Below, one piece after another: positions 52,959-58,993 of a stretch of DNA of 64,000 bases. Where the stretch lies: contig JAFUBZ010000039.1 in assembly GCA_017459945.1 (NCBI GenBank), positions 1 through 64,000 on the forward strand. The letters run 5' to 3'. Position 1 is the stretch's first letter. Each line of letters begins with the position of its first letter. The notes under the pieces were generated by a model. The model searched no databases and was not told the DNA's origin. It worked only from the letters and a program-made list of their open reading frames with translations. The position numbers and the translations under genes are program-made. This DNA is from Eubacterium sp. (GTDB lineage Bacteria; Bacillota; Clostridia; Lachnospirales; Lachnospiraceae).

Positions 52959-52987
52959 TTGACGAAACCAAATAAGAATTATATAAT
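52959..52987 (+). promoter_or_regulatory. Promoter upstream of the AAA/VWA operon
   Basis: TTGACG (52959-52964) and TATAAT (52982-52987) are 17 bases apart, one of the best promoters in the window. It is followed at once by a complete terminator. A partial REP-like half (GTCCCTGTCTCC) lies just upstream at 52937-52948. Confidence 0.8.
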
Positions 52988-52990
52988 GAG

Positions 52991-53050
52991 GAAGCCGTAA
53001 ATAACTTTGATTAGAAGAGACTATCGAAGTTGCGATACGGCTTCTTTTTT
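52991..53050 (+). terminator. Terminator-like hairpin in the AAA/VWA leader
   Basis: GAAGCCGTA (52991-52999) and TACGGCTTC (53036-53044) pair perfectly and are followed by six Ts. Inside, AACTTTGA/TCGAAGTT and TAG/CTA extend the stem. Predicted initiation near 52994 lies at the left arm. The element is either an attenuator, the end of a roughly 55-base small RNA, or the terminator of the upstream oxidase gene. Confidence 0.75.
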
Positions 53051-53173: not shown

Positions 53174-54760
53174 ATGAGATCAGGTTTTCTGAATTCAAAA
53201 TATGCAGATTTGAACAGGCTGCCGGAGCCATATTGCCATATGGAACCGCGGACAATCAATAAGGAATATATGTCCGTTTATAATGAGGGACAGAGGCTGG
53301 CAGAGGCAAACGGAATCGTCATCCGTGCAGCACTGGAGTATCTGGGAGGAAGCCAGGCACGGACTGCACTTGTGAAGGTGAGTGAGACCAGCTATGCCAC
53401 AGAAGCGATGACGGATCAGGGCATTCTGATCACAAGCGTGCATACTAACGGACGTGTCCGCAGTGCGCTTCGGAAAGACGATGGCAGCTATGTAGCAGTT
53501 CCGGCATTTGATGCAGAGGAACCGATCGATACGATGCCGGTTTTGCTCGGATTTTTCCCGATGTTAAGAGAGCAGTTTGAGGAAGTGTCCCGGATCCTGG
53601 ATCATATGCAGGAGGACAGCCAGAACCTGCGGGATTATGCGGCAGGGGATCTGTATAAACTGTCAGACTCTATTTACCGGATCTTTACGGAGAAAAGGAT
53701 CGAGACGGACTTAAAGAGCAACGGGATTGCTTATCTGGATCCGGAAGCGGTCACAATCGGCGGGCTTCGTTCCAACAGAGTCCTTTGCGGAGCACCGTCT
53801 GTTCTGGCAGAGGAACCGGGCGAAAAGAAGAAAACAGAAGGGATGACAGTGGCAGAGGCGAAAGAAGAGTTTGCCGCCTTTGCCGCTGAAAATGAATGGA
53901 CCAAAGAAGAAGAGCAGTTTATTCCGGTATTTGAGGAAGACTTCCTTGTGCCGGAAGAAACATTGAAAATGGCTCGCCGTTATGTAGCATCCAGAGGAGA
54001 GCGCAGACCGATGGTCAATTTCATGTGGCGCGGTATTACTGCGTACGGCAAATCGACCGGTGTCGAGATCATGGCCTGCATCCTTCATATGCCGCTTCTG
54101 CGCGTGACCTGCAACAGCAATATGGAAACGCAGGATTTCTTAAGTGATTTTGTCCCGAATACCAATACAGAGGGCAAGTCGGATGCGCCGCGTTTCATGC
54201 ATGTGGAATCCAACTATGTAAAAGCACTTGAACGAGGATATATCGTGGAAGTACAGGAGATTTCCAGAATCAAGGACAGCGGTGTGCTGGTCGGCTTAAA
54301 TGAGTACGACAGAGCAGGTGCGATGATCCCGCTGGTTGACGGAACCTATACAAGACGGCATAAGAGAGCACTGGTCGTTTATACGGATAACGTCGGATAC
54401 AATTCCTGTCGCCCGATCGATGCATCTGTCATCCGTCGTATGTCATTCATCATTGATAGCTACGATCTGCCCAAAGAAAAAACCATGGCGCGGCTTGAAC
54501 TCAATACCGGCGTGCATAATCAGGGTGTTTTGGAAAAATGCTATCAGGTATGGCGGAAAATCCGCGACTTCTGTTACACAAGAGGCATGACGGATGGCAG
54601 CATTTCCCTGTCAGAACTGGAAATGTGGGTGCTTGCAGTGAAACTTGACGGATACAGCAATTTCCGTGAAAACTGCATCGAATGTGTCGTATCAAAAGCA
54701 ACCAATGACATCGAAGAACAGGAGGAGATCATTTCTTCTGTTCTGGACCTGTATCTGTAG
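53174..54760 (+). CDS. MoxR-like AAA ATPase
   Basis: This 528-residue protein has a unique N-terminal half (residues 1-270) and an AAA+ module with Walker A RGITAYGKSTG (near 287). A Walker-B-like EVQEISRI lies near 358, and a sensor region VVYTDNVGYNS follows. In MoxR-type proteins such ATPases pair with VWA-domain proteins as metal or cofactor-loading chaperones. The VWA partner lies 27 bases downstream. The ATG at 53174 follows GGAGGGAG; 48 additional in-frame codons upstream start at a TTG inside the leader hairpin. Its client protein is unknown. Confidence 0.8.
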   Translation: MRSGFLNSKYADLNRLPEPYCHMEPRTINKEYMSVYNEGQRLAEANGIVIRAALEYLGGSQARTALVKVSETSYATEAMTDQGILITSVHTNGRVRSALRKDDGSYVAVPAFDAEEPIDTMPVLLGFFPMLREQFEEVSRILDHMQEDSQNLRDYAAGDLYKLSDSIYRIFTEKRIETDLKSNGIAYLDPEAVTIGGLRSNRVLCGAPSVLAEEPGEKKKTEGMTVAEAKEEFAAFAAENEWTKEEEQFIPVFEEDFLVPEETLKMARRYVASRGERRPMVNFMWRGITAYGKSTGVEIMACILHMPLLRVTCNSNMETQDFLSDFVPNTNTEGKSDAPRFMHVESNYVKALERGYIVEVQEISRIKDSGVLVGLNEYDRAGAMIPLVDGTYTRRHKRALVVYTDNVGYNSCRPIDASVIRRMSFIIDSYDLPKEKTMARLELNTGVHNQGVLEKCYQVWRKIRDFCYTRGMTDGSISLSELEMWVLAVKLDGYSNFRENCIECVVSKATNDIEEQEEIISSVLDLYL

Positions 54761-54787
54761 ATTTCGTGCGCGAGGAGAAGCTGTTTT

Positions 54788-57211
54788 ATGAGCAGTATTT
54801 TTTCGGAAAAAGTAAAAGAACGGCAACAGGATCTGTCGGCAGAGGAAATCCCGTTTTCGGCGATCGCGCAGTCTTCTTATTTCAGACAGTATCTGCAGGG
54901 CTTTTTAACTTCTCTTACGAGTGATCTGGATCTTCCGATGATCGTAAAGATCGTATATCAGCCGATCGCACGCCGGACAAGCAGCATGCAGGGAGCCGGT
55001 GTGGCACGCATTGAGGAAAAGAAGCAGAACGACTGGGCAAGTCTGGCACAACCAGCATCCGCAGCCGGTAACGGAAGCGGATGTGCATCCTGTGGTGGGT
55101 GCGGCAATGAAGAAGAGAGCCGGTTACCTGCTGCGTTGCGGAAGCAGGAGACGATTCATGCGGATTCCACAGAGGAAATGCTTGATGATGGGGAAGAACG
55201 GATCCGTCTGTCCCGCCTGAACGGAAAGGAGATCGTGATCAATGCGGCCCATCCGCTGATTACATCGTATGAGACCCTGGAAAACAAGATGTTTTGTATT
55301 CTGGGCCTTCTCTTCCATGAGACAGGCCATCTGATGTTTATGGATCTGAAAGGCGAGAATGCCTGCATTCAGGAAGTCCTTGAGGGACGTCTGCCGTTTG
55401 AAGAGGAATTTTTGGCGGAGCATCTGGTATCAAAGTTTTTCCTGCGGGCTGTGCGGTTTGATCTGTTCCGTCCGTTATTTGCGAAGATCTACCATGATCT
55501 GGCAAGCGTGATCAGTGATCACCACGATGAGGAGCGGATCTGTCAGACCGGAGGCGTGCTGCTTCGAAAAGGGATTCAGACATTACGGGAAGCGCAGTAT
55601 GCGACCGTCCGTTCATTGGATGAAATGGAGGCGGATGAGTCCTGCGGGCCGTTTGCAACGGTACTGGCTATGGTGTATCAGTATCTTCGCTATGGCAGCA
55701 TTTTTGTGATCGATGAAGAGACCAAGGCCAGCCGTTCGAGGCTTGGATTTATGAAGCGGATCAAACCGGATCTGGACGCTGCGCTGGCAGCAGACTCGGT
55801 CAAAGAAAAGTACCTGTGCATTAACAATATCGTCCTGAAAATGTGGCCGCTGATGCATTTAGAACCACCGGAGCACGGCTCCGAATTCGGCATGGTGTCT
55901 CAGGAGTCCGATACAGAGTTTTCCTATGAATATGATGAGGAAAATGCCGTGTTTGAGGGCGACGGCGACGGAGATCGTCAGGAGCTTGAGAAAAAGGAAG
56001 ATGAGAATGCCGAGGAGCAGGAAGGCTCCGGGTCAAAGGTGCATGATACAGAGGAGTATGACGAGGACGGCTCCCGGTCCGGCTCCGGCAGCGATGAGAC
56101 GATGGAAGAGGCCGTCGAGGAAGATGCCATGGCGCAGATCGCACAGGGGATGGATGAAGCGGGCGGCATGAGCTTTTCCGAGCAGCCTTCGTTCATTCCG
56201 GAAGGATCACCTTCCGGTCATAGCGGAGCGGGCAGTATGACAACCGCAGCAGAGGCGGATATTTCCGGCGGTTCGGATCCGGTTGAAATGATCGAACCGG
56301 GGATTCGCAAGATCAAGGAATCCATGATCGAAGACATGGCCGAAGAGCAGGTGGCACAGGAAGCGGTGAACGGCTCTCTGATCATGATCAATAACGGTAA
56401 TGCATTTACATCTCACAAAGGTATTCTGCCAAATCTTGTTAAGGCAAAGCCGACAGAAGCGGATCGGATCGAATACGAAACGGTCGCAAAGGAATATATG
56501 TCCTTTATCAGAAAAACTGAGCGCGAGATCCGTAAGATCATGCAGGAAGAGACGATCGCAAAACAGCGGCGCCGGATCATGGGACGTGAGATCGATACGA
56601 GAAATCTGTATAAGCTCGATCAGCGCTATTTCATGAAAAAGAAGAATCCGGAAAAGCAGCTCGATATGGCAATTGCGATCCTGGTAGACAACAGTGGTTC
56701 GATGCGCGGAGAACGGCTGGAGTCCGCAAAAGAAGCAGCGATCCTGTTGAATGAAGTTCTGGAGCGGCTGGAGATCCCGTTTATGATCGCGGGACATAAC
56801 TGTCAGGATGTGCCGCAGATCTGTTTTTATAAAATGTTTGAAGACCATCGCTCGGCAAAGTATTCGGTCAACCGGATGCAGCCGGCCGGAGACAACAGAG
56901 ACGGCCTGGCGATTGATGTGGTGAGCCGCTTTTTGCTGGAGCGGGATGAGAAGGACAAACTGTTTCTGATCATATCTGACGGCCAGCCGAATGCGAGTGG
57001 ATATACCGGGGAACCTGCCAGACAGGATATTCGCCAGATCGTACGACGGCTTAGAGCGGAGGAAGTTAAGACGATCGCGTTTGCGATCGGGGATGACAAA
57101 CCGCAGATCCGCAGTATCTACGGAGAGTCATTTGTGGACATCACAGACCACGACCAGTTCCCGAAGCGGTTATCGAAGATGATCGAGAAAGAGATCGTGG
57201 CGCGGCTGTAG
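54788..57211 (+). CDS. VWA-domain protein with HExxH motif, partner of the AAA ATPase
   Basis: This 807-residue protein has a CASCGGC cysteine cluster (residues 99-105) and an HETGH sequence at 177-181 like a zinc peptidase. A long acidic low-complexity stretch (about 375-480) and a C-terminal VWA domain (about 628-805) follow. The MIDAS reads DNSGSMRG (D634), and ISDGQPNASG lies further on. CobT and NorD-like proteins share the acidic middle and VWA end, but I do not know a named family with this HExxH half. The gene lies 27 bases after the ATPase and 15 before a DUF4116 gene. Confidence 0.75.
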   Translation: MSSIFSEKVKERQQDLSAEEIPFSAIAQSSYFRQYLQGFLTSLTSDLDLPMIVKIVYQPIARRTSSMQGAGVARIEEKKQNDWASLAQPASAAGNGSGCASCGGCGNEEESRLPAALRKQETIHADSTEEMLDDGEERIRLSRLNGKEIVINAAHPLITSYETLENKMFCILGLLFHETGHLMFMDLKGENACIQEVLEGRLPFEEEFLAEHLVSKFFLRAVRFDLFRPLFAKIYHDLASVISDHHDEERICQTGGVLLRKGIQTLREAQYATVRSLDEMEADESCGPFATVLAMVYQYLRYGSIFVIDEETKASRSRLGFMKRIKPDLDAALAADSVKEKYLCINNIVLKMWPLMHLEPPEHGSEFGMVSQESDTEFSYEYDEENAVFEGDGDGDRQELEKKEDENAEEQEGSGSKVHDTEEYDEDGSRSGSGSDETMEEAVEEDAMAQIAQGMDEAGGMSFSEQPSFIPEGSPSGHSGAGSMTTAAEADISGGSDPVEMIEPGIRKIKESMIEDMAEEQVAQEAVNGSLIMINNGNAFTSHKGILPNLVKAKPTEADRIEYETVAKEYMSFIRKTEREIRKIMQEETIAKQRRRIMGREIDTRNLYKLDQRYFMKKKNPEKQLDMAIAILVDNSGSMRGERLESAKEAAILLNEVLERLEIPFMIAGHNCQDVPQICFYKMFEDHRSAKYSVNRMQPAGDNRDGLAIDVVSRFLLERDEKDKLFLIISDGQPNASGYTGEPARQDIRQIVRRLRAEEVKTIAFAIGDDKPQIRSIYGESFVDITDHDQFPKRLSKMIEKEIVARL

Positions 57212-57226
57212 ATTAGAGGAATCATT

Positions 57227-57991
57227 ATGACACAACAAGAACAGGAATTCTGGCTCGAAAAGGTCAGCAATAACGGCATGGAGCTGGCGAATGTGCCGGA
57301 GCAGACGGAAGAACTTTGTAAGGCGGCAGTGGCAAGAAGTCCATGGGCACTGCGCTTTGTGAAAGAACAGACAGAGGAGATCTGTCTGGCCGCTGTGAAC
57401 AGTCTTGGATTGGTGCTTTCCCTTGTGAAGGAAAAGACACCTTCGGTTATCCATGCGGCGATCGAGCAAAACGGCATGTCAATCCAGCATGTGCCGGAAG
57501 AACTGCGGACAGAAGAGATCTGTGCACAGGCAATTGGTCAAAAACCGGAAGCAATCCGTTTTTTGAACAACCCTTTTGAAGATCTTTGCCGGCTGGCAGT
57601 AGAGCAAGATGGAATGGCATTGAAATACATCGGAGACCCGACAGAAGAGATCTGTGAGCTTGCGGTCATGCAGAATCCAAAAGCGATCGCATATGTGAAG
57701 AATAAAAGTGAGCGGCTGCAGCAGATTGAAAAGATCGCGAACGATCCGTTTTCAATCCTGGATATGAAAAGTCCATCAGAGGAAGCGTGCCTGCTGGCGG
57801 TTCGTTCAGACTGGAGTGTGTTTGAATACCTGCCGCTGCAGACAGAGGAAATCTGTCTGGAAGCGGTGCAGCAGAAAGGGGAGCTGCTGGCGTATGTGGA
57901 TGAGCAGACACTTCCGGTCTGCCGGGCGGCTGTAGCCCAAAGCCCAAAGGCGATTCGATTTGTAGAAGAATGGTATAAAGAAGATTTGTAA
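57227..57991 (+). CDS. DUF4116-like repeat protein
   Basis: This 254-residue protein consists of about nine repeats of 23-25 residues with the pattern EQTEExCxxAVxxxPxALxFV. Examples are EQTEELCKAAVARSPWALRF and EQTEEICLAAVNSLGLVLSL. This resembles DUF4116 helical repeats, whose role is unknown but could be protein binding. It starts 15 bases after the VWA gene and ends the operon at a perfect terminator. Confidence 0.78.
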   Translation: MTQQEQEFWLEKVSNNGMELANVPEQTEELCKAAVARSPWALRFVKEQTEEICLAAVNSLGLVLSLVKEKTPSVIHAAIEQNGMSIQHVPEELRTEEICAQAIGQKPEAIRFLNNPFEDLCRLAVEQDGMALKYIGDPTEEICELAVMQNPKAIAYVKNKSERLQQIEKIANDPFSILDMKSPSEEACLLAVRSDWSVFEYLPLQTEEICLEAVQQKGELLAYVDEQTLPVCRAAVAQSPKAIRFVEEWYKEDL

Positions 57992-57996
57992 ATGAT

Positions 57997-58038
57997 CAGG
58001 ACTGCGGTTTTCATCAGAAATCGCAGTCCTGTTTTTTT
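57997..58038 (+). terminator. Intrinsic terminator after the DUF4116 gene
   Basis: CAGGACTGCG (57997-58006) and CGCAGTCCTG (58022-58031) pair perfectly, followed by seven Ts. Confidence 0.95.
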
Positions 58039-58072: not shown

Positions 58073-58909
58073 TCAGTCTTTCAATTCAGGGAAATAATCG
58101 ATCAGGTCATGATAGATCTCTCCAAAGTCCACCTGGAACTTTCCTTCGCTGATGTGTACCGGAATCGTATCTTCCATTCCGTAGATCCGATGGATGATAT
58201 CTTCTTCGAATACGCTGACCATGATCCGTTTTTCTTTCAGATCGACGATCCAGTATTCTTTGACGCCAGCATTGGCATATTTTGCGCCTTTGATCACAAT
58301 ATCCTTTTTCCTGGTGGACGGAGAGAGTACTTCGATGATCAGATCCGGCGCACCATAATACCGGCCGTCTCTAAACCGGGAGGAATCGCAGGTCCCAAAT
58401 ACATCCGGCTGGACGATCGTCTTATCATCACAATCAAGCTGCACATCGAGCGGAGAGATAAACGGTCTGCAATCTGTCTGCTGGCTCTTTGCCTGAGAAA
58501 GCAGGGTGTGATAAATCTCTCCTGCCAAGAACTGATGGTATCCGGTCGGAGCAGCCATATCATAAAAGACACCGTCGATCAGCTCAACACGGCGCTCCTC
58601 TGGCAGCGCCAGATAATCTTCCAATGTATATTCTCCCGGCTTCTTTTCACCGGGGGATTTCTTTTGTGCGCCGTACGATGTGGCAGCTTCGGAAACGAGC
58701 GCATCGCGCGAGCCATATTCTGCCTCCGGCAGCGGAGACAACCGGAACAGTGCTTCTTCGAGTGCACGTATGGTCTCATATCGAGGGGAAGCTGTCGCTC
58801 CGCTTAAAACCTTTTGAATGGTAGACAGCGGTACACCTGAAATTTCTGAGAGCTTCTTATATGATAATCCTAAGTCCTTTGCCTGCTGTTTGATCTTTTC
58901 GATTCTCAT
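58073..58909 (-). CDS. HTH-Uma2 protein (XRE-like DNA binding plus PD-(D/E)XK nuclease-like domain)
   Basis: This 278-residue protein begins with a lambda-repressor-type helix-turn-helix (residues 1-55; LGLSYKKLSEISGVPLSTIQ). After a linker comes a Uma2-type PD-(D/E)XK domain (about 98-270), with ELIDGVFYDMAAP, the VQPDV aspartate and PDLIIEVLSPST. The Uma2 core residues look intact, but the family has no proven substrate. The ATG at 58909 follows AGGAGGGACG; 19 in-frame codons upstream overlap its promoter. Repeated ATGGAAAC sites in the divergent promoter region suggest autoregulation. Confidence 0.85.
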   Translation of the reverse strand: MRIEKIKQQAKDLGLSYKKLSEISGVPLSTIQKVLSGATASPRYETIRALEEALFRLSPLPEAEYGSRDALVSEAATSYGAQKKSPGEKKPGEYTLEDYLALPEERRVELIDGVFYDMAAPTGYHQFLAGEIYHTLLSQAKSQQTDCRPFISPLDVQLDCDDKTIVQPDVFGTCDSSRFRDGRYYGAPDLIIEVLSPSTRKKDIVIKGAKYANAGVKEYWIVDLKEKRIMVSVFEEDIIHRIYGMEDTIPVHISEGKFQVDFGEIYHDLIDYFPELKD

Positions 58910-58964
58910 GGGCGTCCCTCCTTCTACCTGTGCTTTTCCAAGCAATCGTCTTAAGACTAATGCC

Positions 58965-58993
58965 ATTATAAATCCGATTTAATTCCATGTCAA
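58965..58993 (-). promoter_or_regulatory. Consensus promoter of the HTH-Uma2 gene
   Basis: On the minus strand TTGACA (58993-58988) and TATAAT (58970-58965) are 17 bases apart, a perfect consensus sigma-A promoter. Such strength is usually held down by a repressor; ATGGAAAC repeats lie just upstream. Confidence 0.85.

Follow-up and report, generated by a model that had tools for sequence, protein, structure and literature searches.

The locus raises the question of what an AAA+ ATPase, a VWA protein with an HExxH motif and a DUF4116 repeat protein may do together when their genes lie back to back. In the window, which is the whole stretch of 64,000 nucleotides that was analyzed, the three genes lie on one strand in the order AAA+, VWA protein and DUF4116 protein, with intergenic gaps of 27 and 15 bases. 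The coordinates, order, strand and gaps agree with those given in a preliminary description of the locus, and a hairpin with a T7 tail lies 3' of the trio, where the shared terminator had been claimed. The main features of the operon are as follows.

53174..54760, + strand: MoxR/CobS-like AAA+ ATPase, 528 aa (weak AAA_5 match in Pfam; conserved in alignment A2)
54788..57211, + strand: CobT-like VWA protein with N-terminal HExxH domain, 807 aa (CobT_C 2.4e-14, VWA 7.1e-10)
57227..57991, + strand: DUF4116 repeat protein, 254 aa, about ten 22-residue repeats (PF13475 2.3e-30)
57997..58031, + strand: intrinsic terminator, a 15-pair hairpin with T7 tail, 3' of the DUF4116 gene

Located 5' of the operon are a TTGACG-17-TATAAT site (52959-52987) and a second terminator-like site (53026-53044), both found by consensus match only. 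Judged from the sequence, the three genes are likely to form one transcription unit. At the start of the window are genes of the ribosomal, secY and adk types (where Pfam gave no result, names were read from translations). Directly 5' of the operon are a cytidylate-kinase-like gene, a patatin and an FAD-linked oxidase, and 3' of it are Uma2, rhomboid and AMMECR1-type genes, with names partly read from translations in both groups. The context is chromosomal and housekeeping, not phage, in the window, in the sister species G230, in the third congeneric species G250 and in G103. The gene at 58073-58966 (- strand), which is convergent with the operon, encodes a putative Uma2-type nuclease with a fused HTH.

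The AAA+ protein is closest in the PDB to CbbQ/NirQ/NorQ (5c3c, 5.8e-8, phmmer). Its Walker motifs are located as follows.

54032..54058, + strand: Walker A GITAYGKST, residues 287-295 (G287, G292 and K293 invariant in A2)
54242..54265, + strand: Walker B region IVEVQEIS, Glu362 kept (A2 alignment)

In nearly the whole AAA family of alignment A2, the Walker B Asp is replaced by Gln (IQEP/VQEI) and the Glu is retained.

The second gene encodes a protein in which an acidic low-complexity linker connects an N-terminal HExxH...D domain to a VWA domain of the MIDAS type.

55082..55102, + strand: CxxCxxC (C99, C102, C105), genus-specific insertion (window and G230 only; absent from the 45% relative)
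55130..55879, + strand: N-terminal metallopeptidase-like domain, residues 115-364 (model pLDDT 81, pTM 0.77)
55316..55330, + strand: HETGH (H177, E178, H181), invariant in A1, A3 and A5
55514..55531, + strand: SDHHDE (243-248) with D244 as candidate third metal ligand; D244 invariant in A1, A3 and A5
56687..56704, + strand: MIDAS DNSGSM of the VWA domain (D634, S636 and S638 invariant in A1 and A3)

The preliminary description had called it unusual that the N-terminal half of the VWA protein holds both HETGH and CxxCxxC. Both motifs are indeed present, but an HExxH is normal for the CobT-like family. The CxxCxxC cluster did not hold up as a conserved part, and it was rejected as a working part because the insertion is confined to the genus.

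Pfam and NCBIfam both returned CobT_C/VWA for the second gene. The VWA domain is of the CobT type (CobT_C, 54 bits against a Pfam cut-off of 21), and the profile of the VWA family (alignment A1) matches CobT 9uka at 1.7e-15. Its fold is nearest to NorD, and the top matches are NorD in NorQD complexes. A cobaltochelatase was rejected, since CobN is absent and the cut-off of the CobT equivalog TIGR01651 was missed (23.9 bits against 759). CobN (PF02514) was absent from G230, G103 and G729, genomes that are 92-98% complete, while control genomes gave matches. The CobS/CobT proteins of phages and archaeal viruses have been read as cobaltochelatase helpers of host CobN, and the cobT of HHTV-2 is split (PMC8651126). 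The present protein is like them in its CobT-type VWA, and an HHTV-2 protein is the best fold match of its N-terminal domain; unlike them, it occurs where CobN is absent. Because the catalytic glutamate is conserved and CobN is absent from G230, G103 and G729, the chelatase reading is disfavored here. For the phage and ICE "CobT" proteins of the HExxH type, this argues for peptidase-like machines, not cobalamin enzymes.

We then consider the HExxH domain itself. Conservation was read from three alignments, A1 with 11 cellular proteins, and A3 and A5 with 24 and 27 members, respectively, including viral proteins. The preliminary description had staked its reading beforehand on the conservation of HETGH among homologs, and we found that H177, E178, H181 and also D244 are invariant in all three alignments despite an identity to the window protein of often only 10-25%. 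The HExxH...D family is large, occurs in phages, ICEs and plasmids, and is paired with the same AAA. In the relatives, HExxH is followed ~25-70 residues on by N-x-x-E-D-x-x-I-E. The branch linked to DUF4116 (window, G230, G103 and G729) carries the signature SDxHDE in place of the relatives' EDxxIE, and the Glu conserved in the relatives is Ser at 243. The motif table, which was made by regular expression, placed a few relatives at the wrong ED, and the alignments show the right one. D244 is our preferred candidate for the third metal ligand, because D244 and E248 form a strongly conserved pair, four residues apart on one helix.

The fold of the HExxH domain, which had been left to prediction, was modeled with confidence, but Foldseek returned no PDB match for the model at E<=0.001, which does not in itself indicate a new fold. 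The model matches predicted phage VWFA/CobT proteins. The top row of VIA-align was Caldithrix DPP III (6eom, Z 4.3), which is within noise and a lead only; that protein is an HEISH peptidase with the ligand motif EECKAD. Homology of the domain to DUF2201_N was rejected, as only the VWA core aligned. We are not aware that proteolytic activity has been measured for any relative.

What might choose a client for such a domain? PF13475 scores 104.3 bits on the third gene against a cut-off of 24.9 and is the only Pfam family above cut-off there. In a published model, the DUF4116 family is an alpha-solenoid. When the window was compared with G230, the identity was 98.7% for the AAA, 98.1% for the VWA protein and 80.6% for the DUF4116 protein, and nearly all the DUF4116 differences fell within one segment.

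57350..57634, + strand: variable cassette of DUF4116, residues 42-136 (sister-species comparison, window against G230)

In the same comparison, the cassette has an identity of 0.53 with a dN of 0.42 and a dS of 1.97, whereas the flanks have identities of 0.95 (residues 1-41, dS 0.37) and 0.97 (residues 137-254, dS 0.60). Since the high cassette dS lies between low-dS flanks, the pattern in this one species pair points to replacement by recombination, not fast point mutation, and because the repeat period is 22 residues, the exchange would be of about four repeats. We infer, from the same pair, that the cassette swap could represent diversification of specificity in a recognition segment. The proposal in the preliminary description that DUF4116 could read the client gains independent support from the swapped central cassette. 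All three genes are under purifying selection between the window and G230, with dN/dS of 0.03 (AAA), 0.02 (VWA) and 0.17 (DUF4116).

As a tentative answer, the likeliest of those considered but held with somewhat less than even confidence, the operon may encode an ATP-driven, client-selective metallopeptidase or remodeling machine. In this proposal, the AAA+ protein would assemble into a ring of six subunits and bind the VWA domain in the manner of NorQD and CobST, and the predicted DUF4116 alpha-solenoid would pick the client, with its specificity changed where central repeats are exchanged between lineages. ATP hydrolysis would move the VWA domain and the linker, as in NorQD (PMC13036017), and this movement could open the client or feed it to the HExxH domain, which would cut the client or, if enzymatically inactive, only grip it. 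Among the points against the proposal are the Walker B without Asp, the change of E to S at 243, and the N-terminal domain without a significant PDB fold match. MoxR-VWA machines are widespread and few of their clients are known; the branch, with its conserved peptidase-like site, a repeat subunit of its own and a recognition segment that has visibly been swapped, offers a concrete way to approach client choice.

On the other hand, the operon may encode a non-proteolytic MoxR-VWA chaperone for metal insertion or the assembly of a client complex, comparable to NorQD or CbbQO, in which the HExxH domain would bind a metal for delivery or sensing and DUF4116 would be a docking adaptor. The NorD-like VWA fold, the CbbQ/NorQ-like AAA and the loss of E243 in the branch favor such a chaperone, as do the iscU/iscS-type genes that adjoin the operon in G103. 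However, the HExxH glutamate, which serves catalysis and not metal binding, is invariant, the window and G103 have no conserved metalloenzyme neighbor in common, and a recognition cassette that varies would be expected for numerous or shifting clients rather than for a single dedicated enzyme. We consider the chaperone possible but doubtful. Compared with NorQ-NorD (PMC13036017), the window pair would likewise combine a MoxR-class ring with a VWA partner made of an N-domain, a linker and a VWA domain; NorD is a component of a metal-insertion chaperone, whereas the operon here includes an HExxH domain and, as a further subunit, DUF4116.

To place the trio among genomes, we analyzed the distribution of its AAA gene. 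The DUF4116-linked AAA branch is monophyletic with a support of 100/100 and rare. The co-occurrence suggested in the preliminary description holds within the branch, in that DUF4116 lies directly 3' of the AAA-VWA pair in the window, G230 and G103 (3/3 members where the contig reaches far enough), but not across the family, where only 3/397 genomes have the trio. The gene order is the same across two genera at 45-64% identity. One more branch member, G729, which has the AAA and VWA genes of the branch, belongs to another family of the same class; its VWA gene runs off the contig, and a different contig carries two DUF4116 genes with a relaxase and a primase-like gene as neighbors. A sample of the phylum gave no further branch member at E<=1e-40.

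In G250, both flanks of the operon are syntenic with the window at 77-82% identity, and all between AAA codon ~108 and DUF4116 codon ~152 is lost. In the scar on contig C128 (L073:8066-8681), the first ~108 AAA codons are fused to the final 40% of DUF4116 in a different reading frame. Because the deletion is internal and the flanks are syntenic, the operon is dispensable, unless the G250 MAG is misassembled.

The patchy presence of the operon and its deletion in a sister species, together with the cassette swap and the mobile-element relatives of all three parts, would suit a defense or anti-mobile-element system, in which the swappable DUF4116 repeats would recognize an invader protein and the machine would destroy that protein or bring about cell arrest. 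MoxR-vWA ternary conflict systems do exist (Kaur et al. 2020, PMC7159879), and the operon shares their three-gene logic of MoxR, vWA and a third component. In those systems, however, VMAP, iSTAND or other proteins take the third place and the effectors are C-terminal to the vWA, whereas here the third gene encodes DUF4116 and not VMAP, and the HExxH domain is N-terminal. A PADLOC search matched no family and gave only a weak Cas8b match, and the neighbors are housekeeping genes with no defense island; we regard a defense role as unlikely. A known defense system was rejected, since the PADLOC match had no weight.

Most relatives of the AAA-VWA pair lack DUF4116. AAA and HExxH-VWA genes are adjacent on ICEs, on phage contigs and on plasmids, and an SSB or primase gene is often close by. 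For the AAA branch linked to DUF4116, IMG/VR gave no phage homologs, and the phage and plasmid collections gave no close ones. The pair itself is already described. Group 2.2 jumbo phages encode a MoxR and a vWA fused to an N-terminal metallopeptidase, proposed to function in virion assembly (Iyer et al. 2021, PMC7824862). As in the phages, the AAA gene here is directly 5' of the VWA gene with the N-terminal HExxH; unlike the phage pair, the operon is chromosomal, has SDxHDE and carries a third gene, and no DUF4116 is mentioned for the phages. The word "undescribed" in the preliminary description therefore applies to the trio, for which no paper was found, and not to the pair of MoxR and HExxH-VWA, which is known (PMC7824862) along with the phage CobST (PMC8651126). 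What is new is the diversifying third subunit, DUF4116. No paper was found that describes a function for DUF4116 either, and the trio gives the first functional context for the family.

The probable source of the operon is an AAA-VWA pair of a mobile element that turned chromosomal, and its role would be accessory and dispensable, and possibly conflict-related. It might also be a remnant or domesticated module for the maturation of mobile-element proteins, such as virion or conjugation proteins, with no current specific role and an incidental DUF4116 adjacency, given how common the pair is in ICEs and phages and how common DUF4116 also is on MGEs. Against such a remnant stand the strong purifying selection on the AAA and VWA genes (dN/dS 0.02-0.03), the order kept across two genera and the recurrence of DUF4116 beside an unrelated AAA-HExxH-vWA pair, and we find it improbable.

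That recurrence is in G144, another Lachnospiraceae genome, where DUF4116, AAA and DUF2201_N/DUF2201 HExxH-vWA genes are back to back (L179:4149-7510). DUF2201 and AAA_5 pairs resemble the window pair in the N-terminal HExxH, the C-terminal VWA and the AAA partner. Their N-domains have no detectable homology to the window VWA family. Among the other DUF4116 loci examined in Clostridia, the DUF4116 gene of G428 and an AAA gene overlap at the edge of a contig. In G052, AAA, DUF2201 metallopeptidase-vWA, RtcB and an RF-1-domain (PrfH-like) release-factor gene are in a row (L174:5194-13499), and a many-repeat DUF4116 gene is ~3 kb from the AAA/DUF2201 genes. Most other DUF4116 loci, phage loci included, lack a partner of this type, and no AAA-VWA partner was near DUF4116 in the phage contigs and other plasmids that were analyzed. 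Chance adjacency was roughly estimated at ~0.4% per locus, assuming ~5 MoxR-VWA pairs in ~2,700 genes, and by this estimate three independent adjacencies in ~27 loci would be unexpected. Few independent lineages have DUF4116 beside such a pair, and the linkage statistics rest on few events. It is conceivable, though we are inclined to doubt it, that DUF4116 solenoids are swappable client readers recruited repeatedly to MoxR metallopeptidase-vWA machines, which would then form a bacterial class of targeted AAA-metalloproteases in MGE conflict.

A plasmid of Bacteroides fragilis (L086:3931-7215) carries DUF4116 directly 3' of an ArdC/MPTase-PolyVal zincin metallopeptidase gene. Finally, AAA and a CobT-like VWA without HExxH are found in one polypeptide on the Enterococcus faecium plasmid p114-2 (L088:6501-8729) and in G099 (L050:6992-9109).
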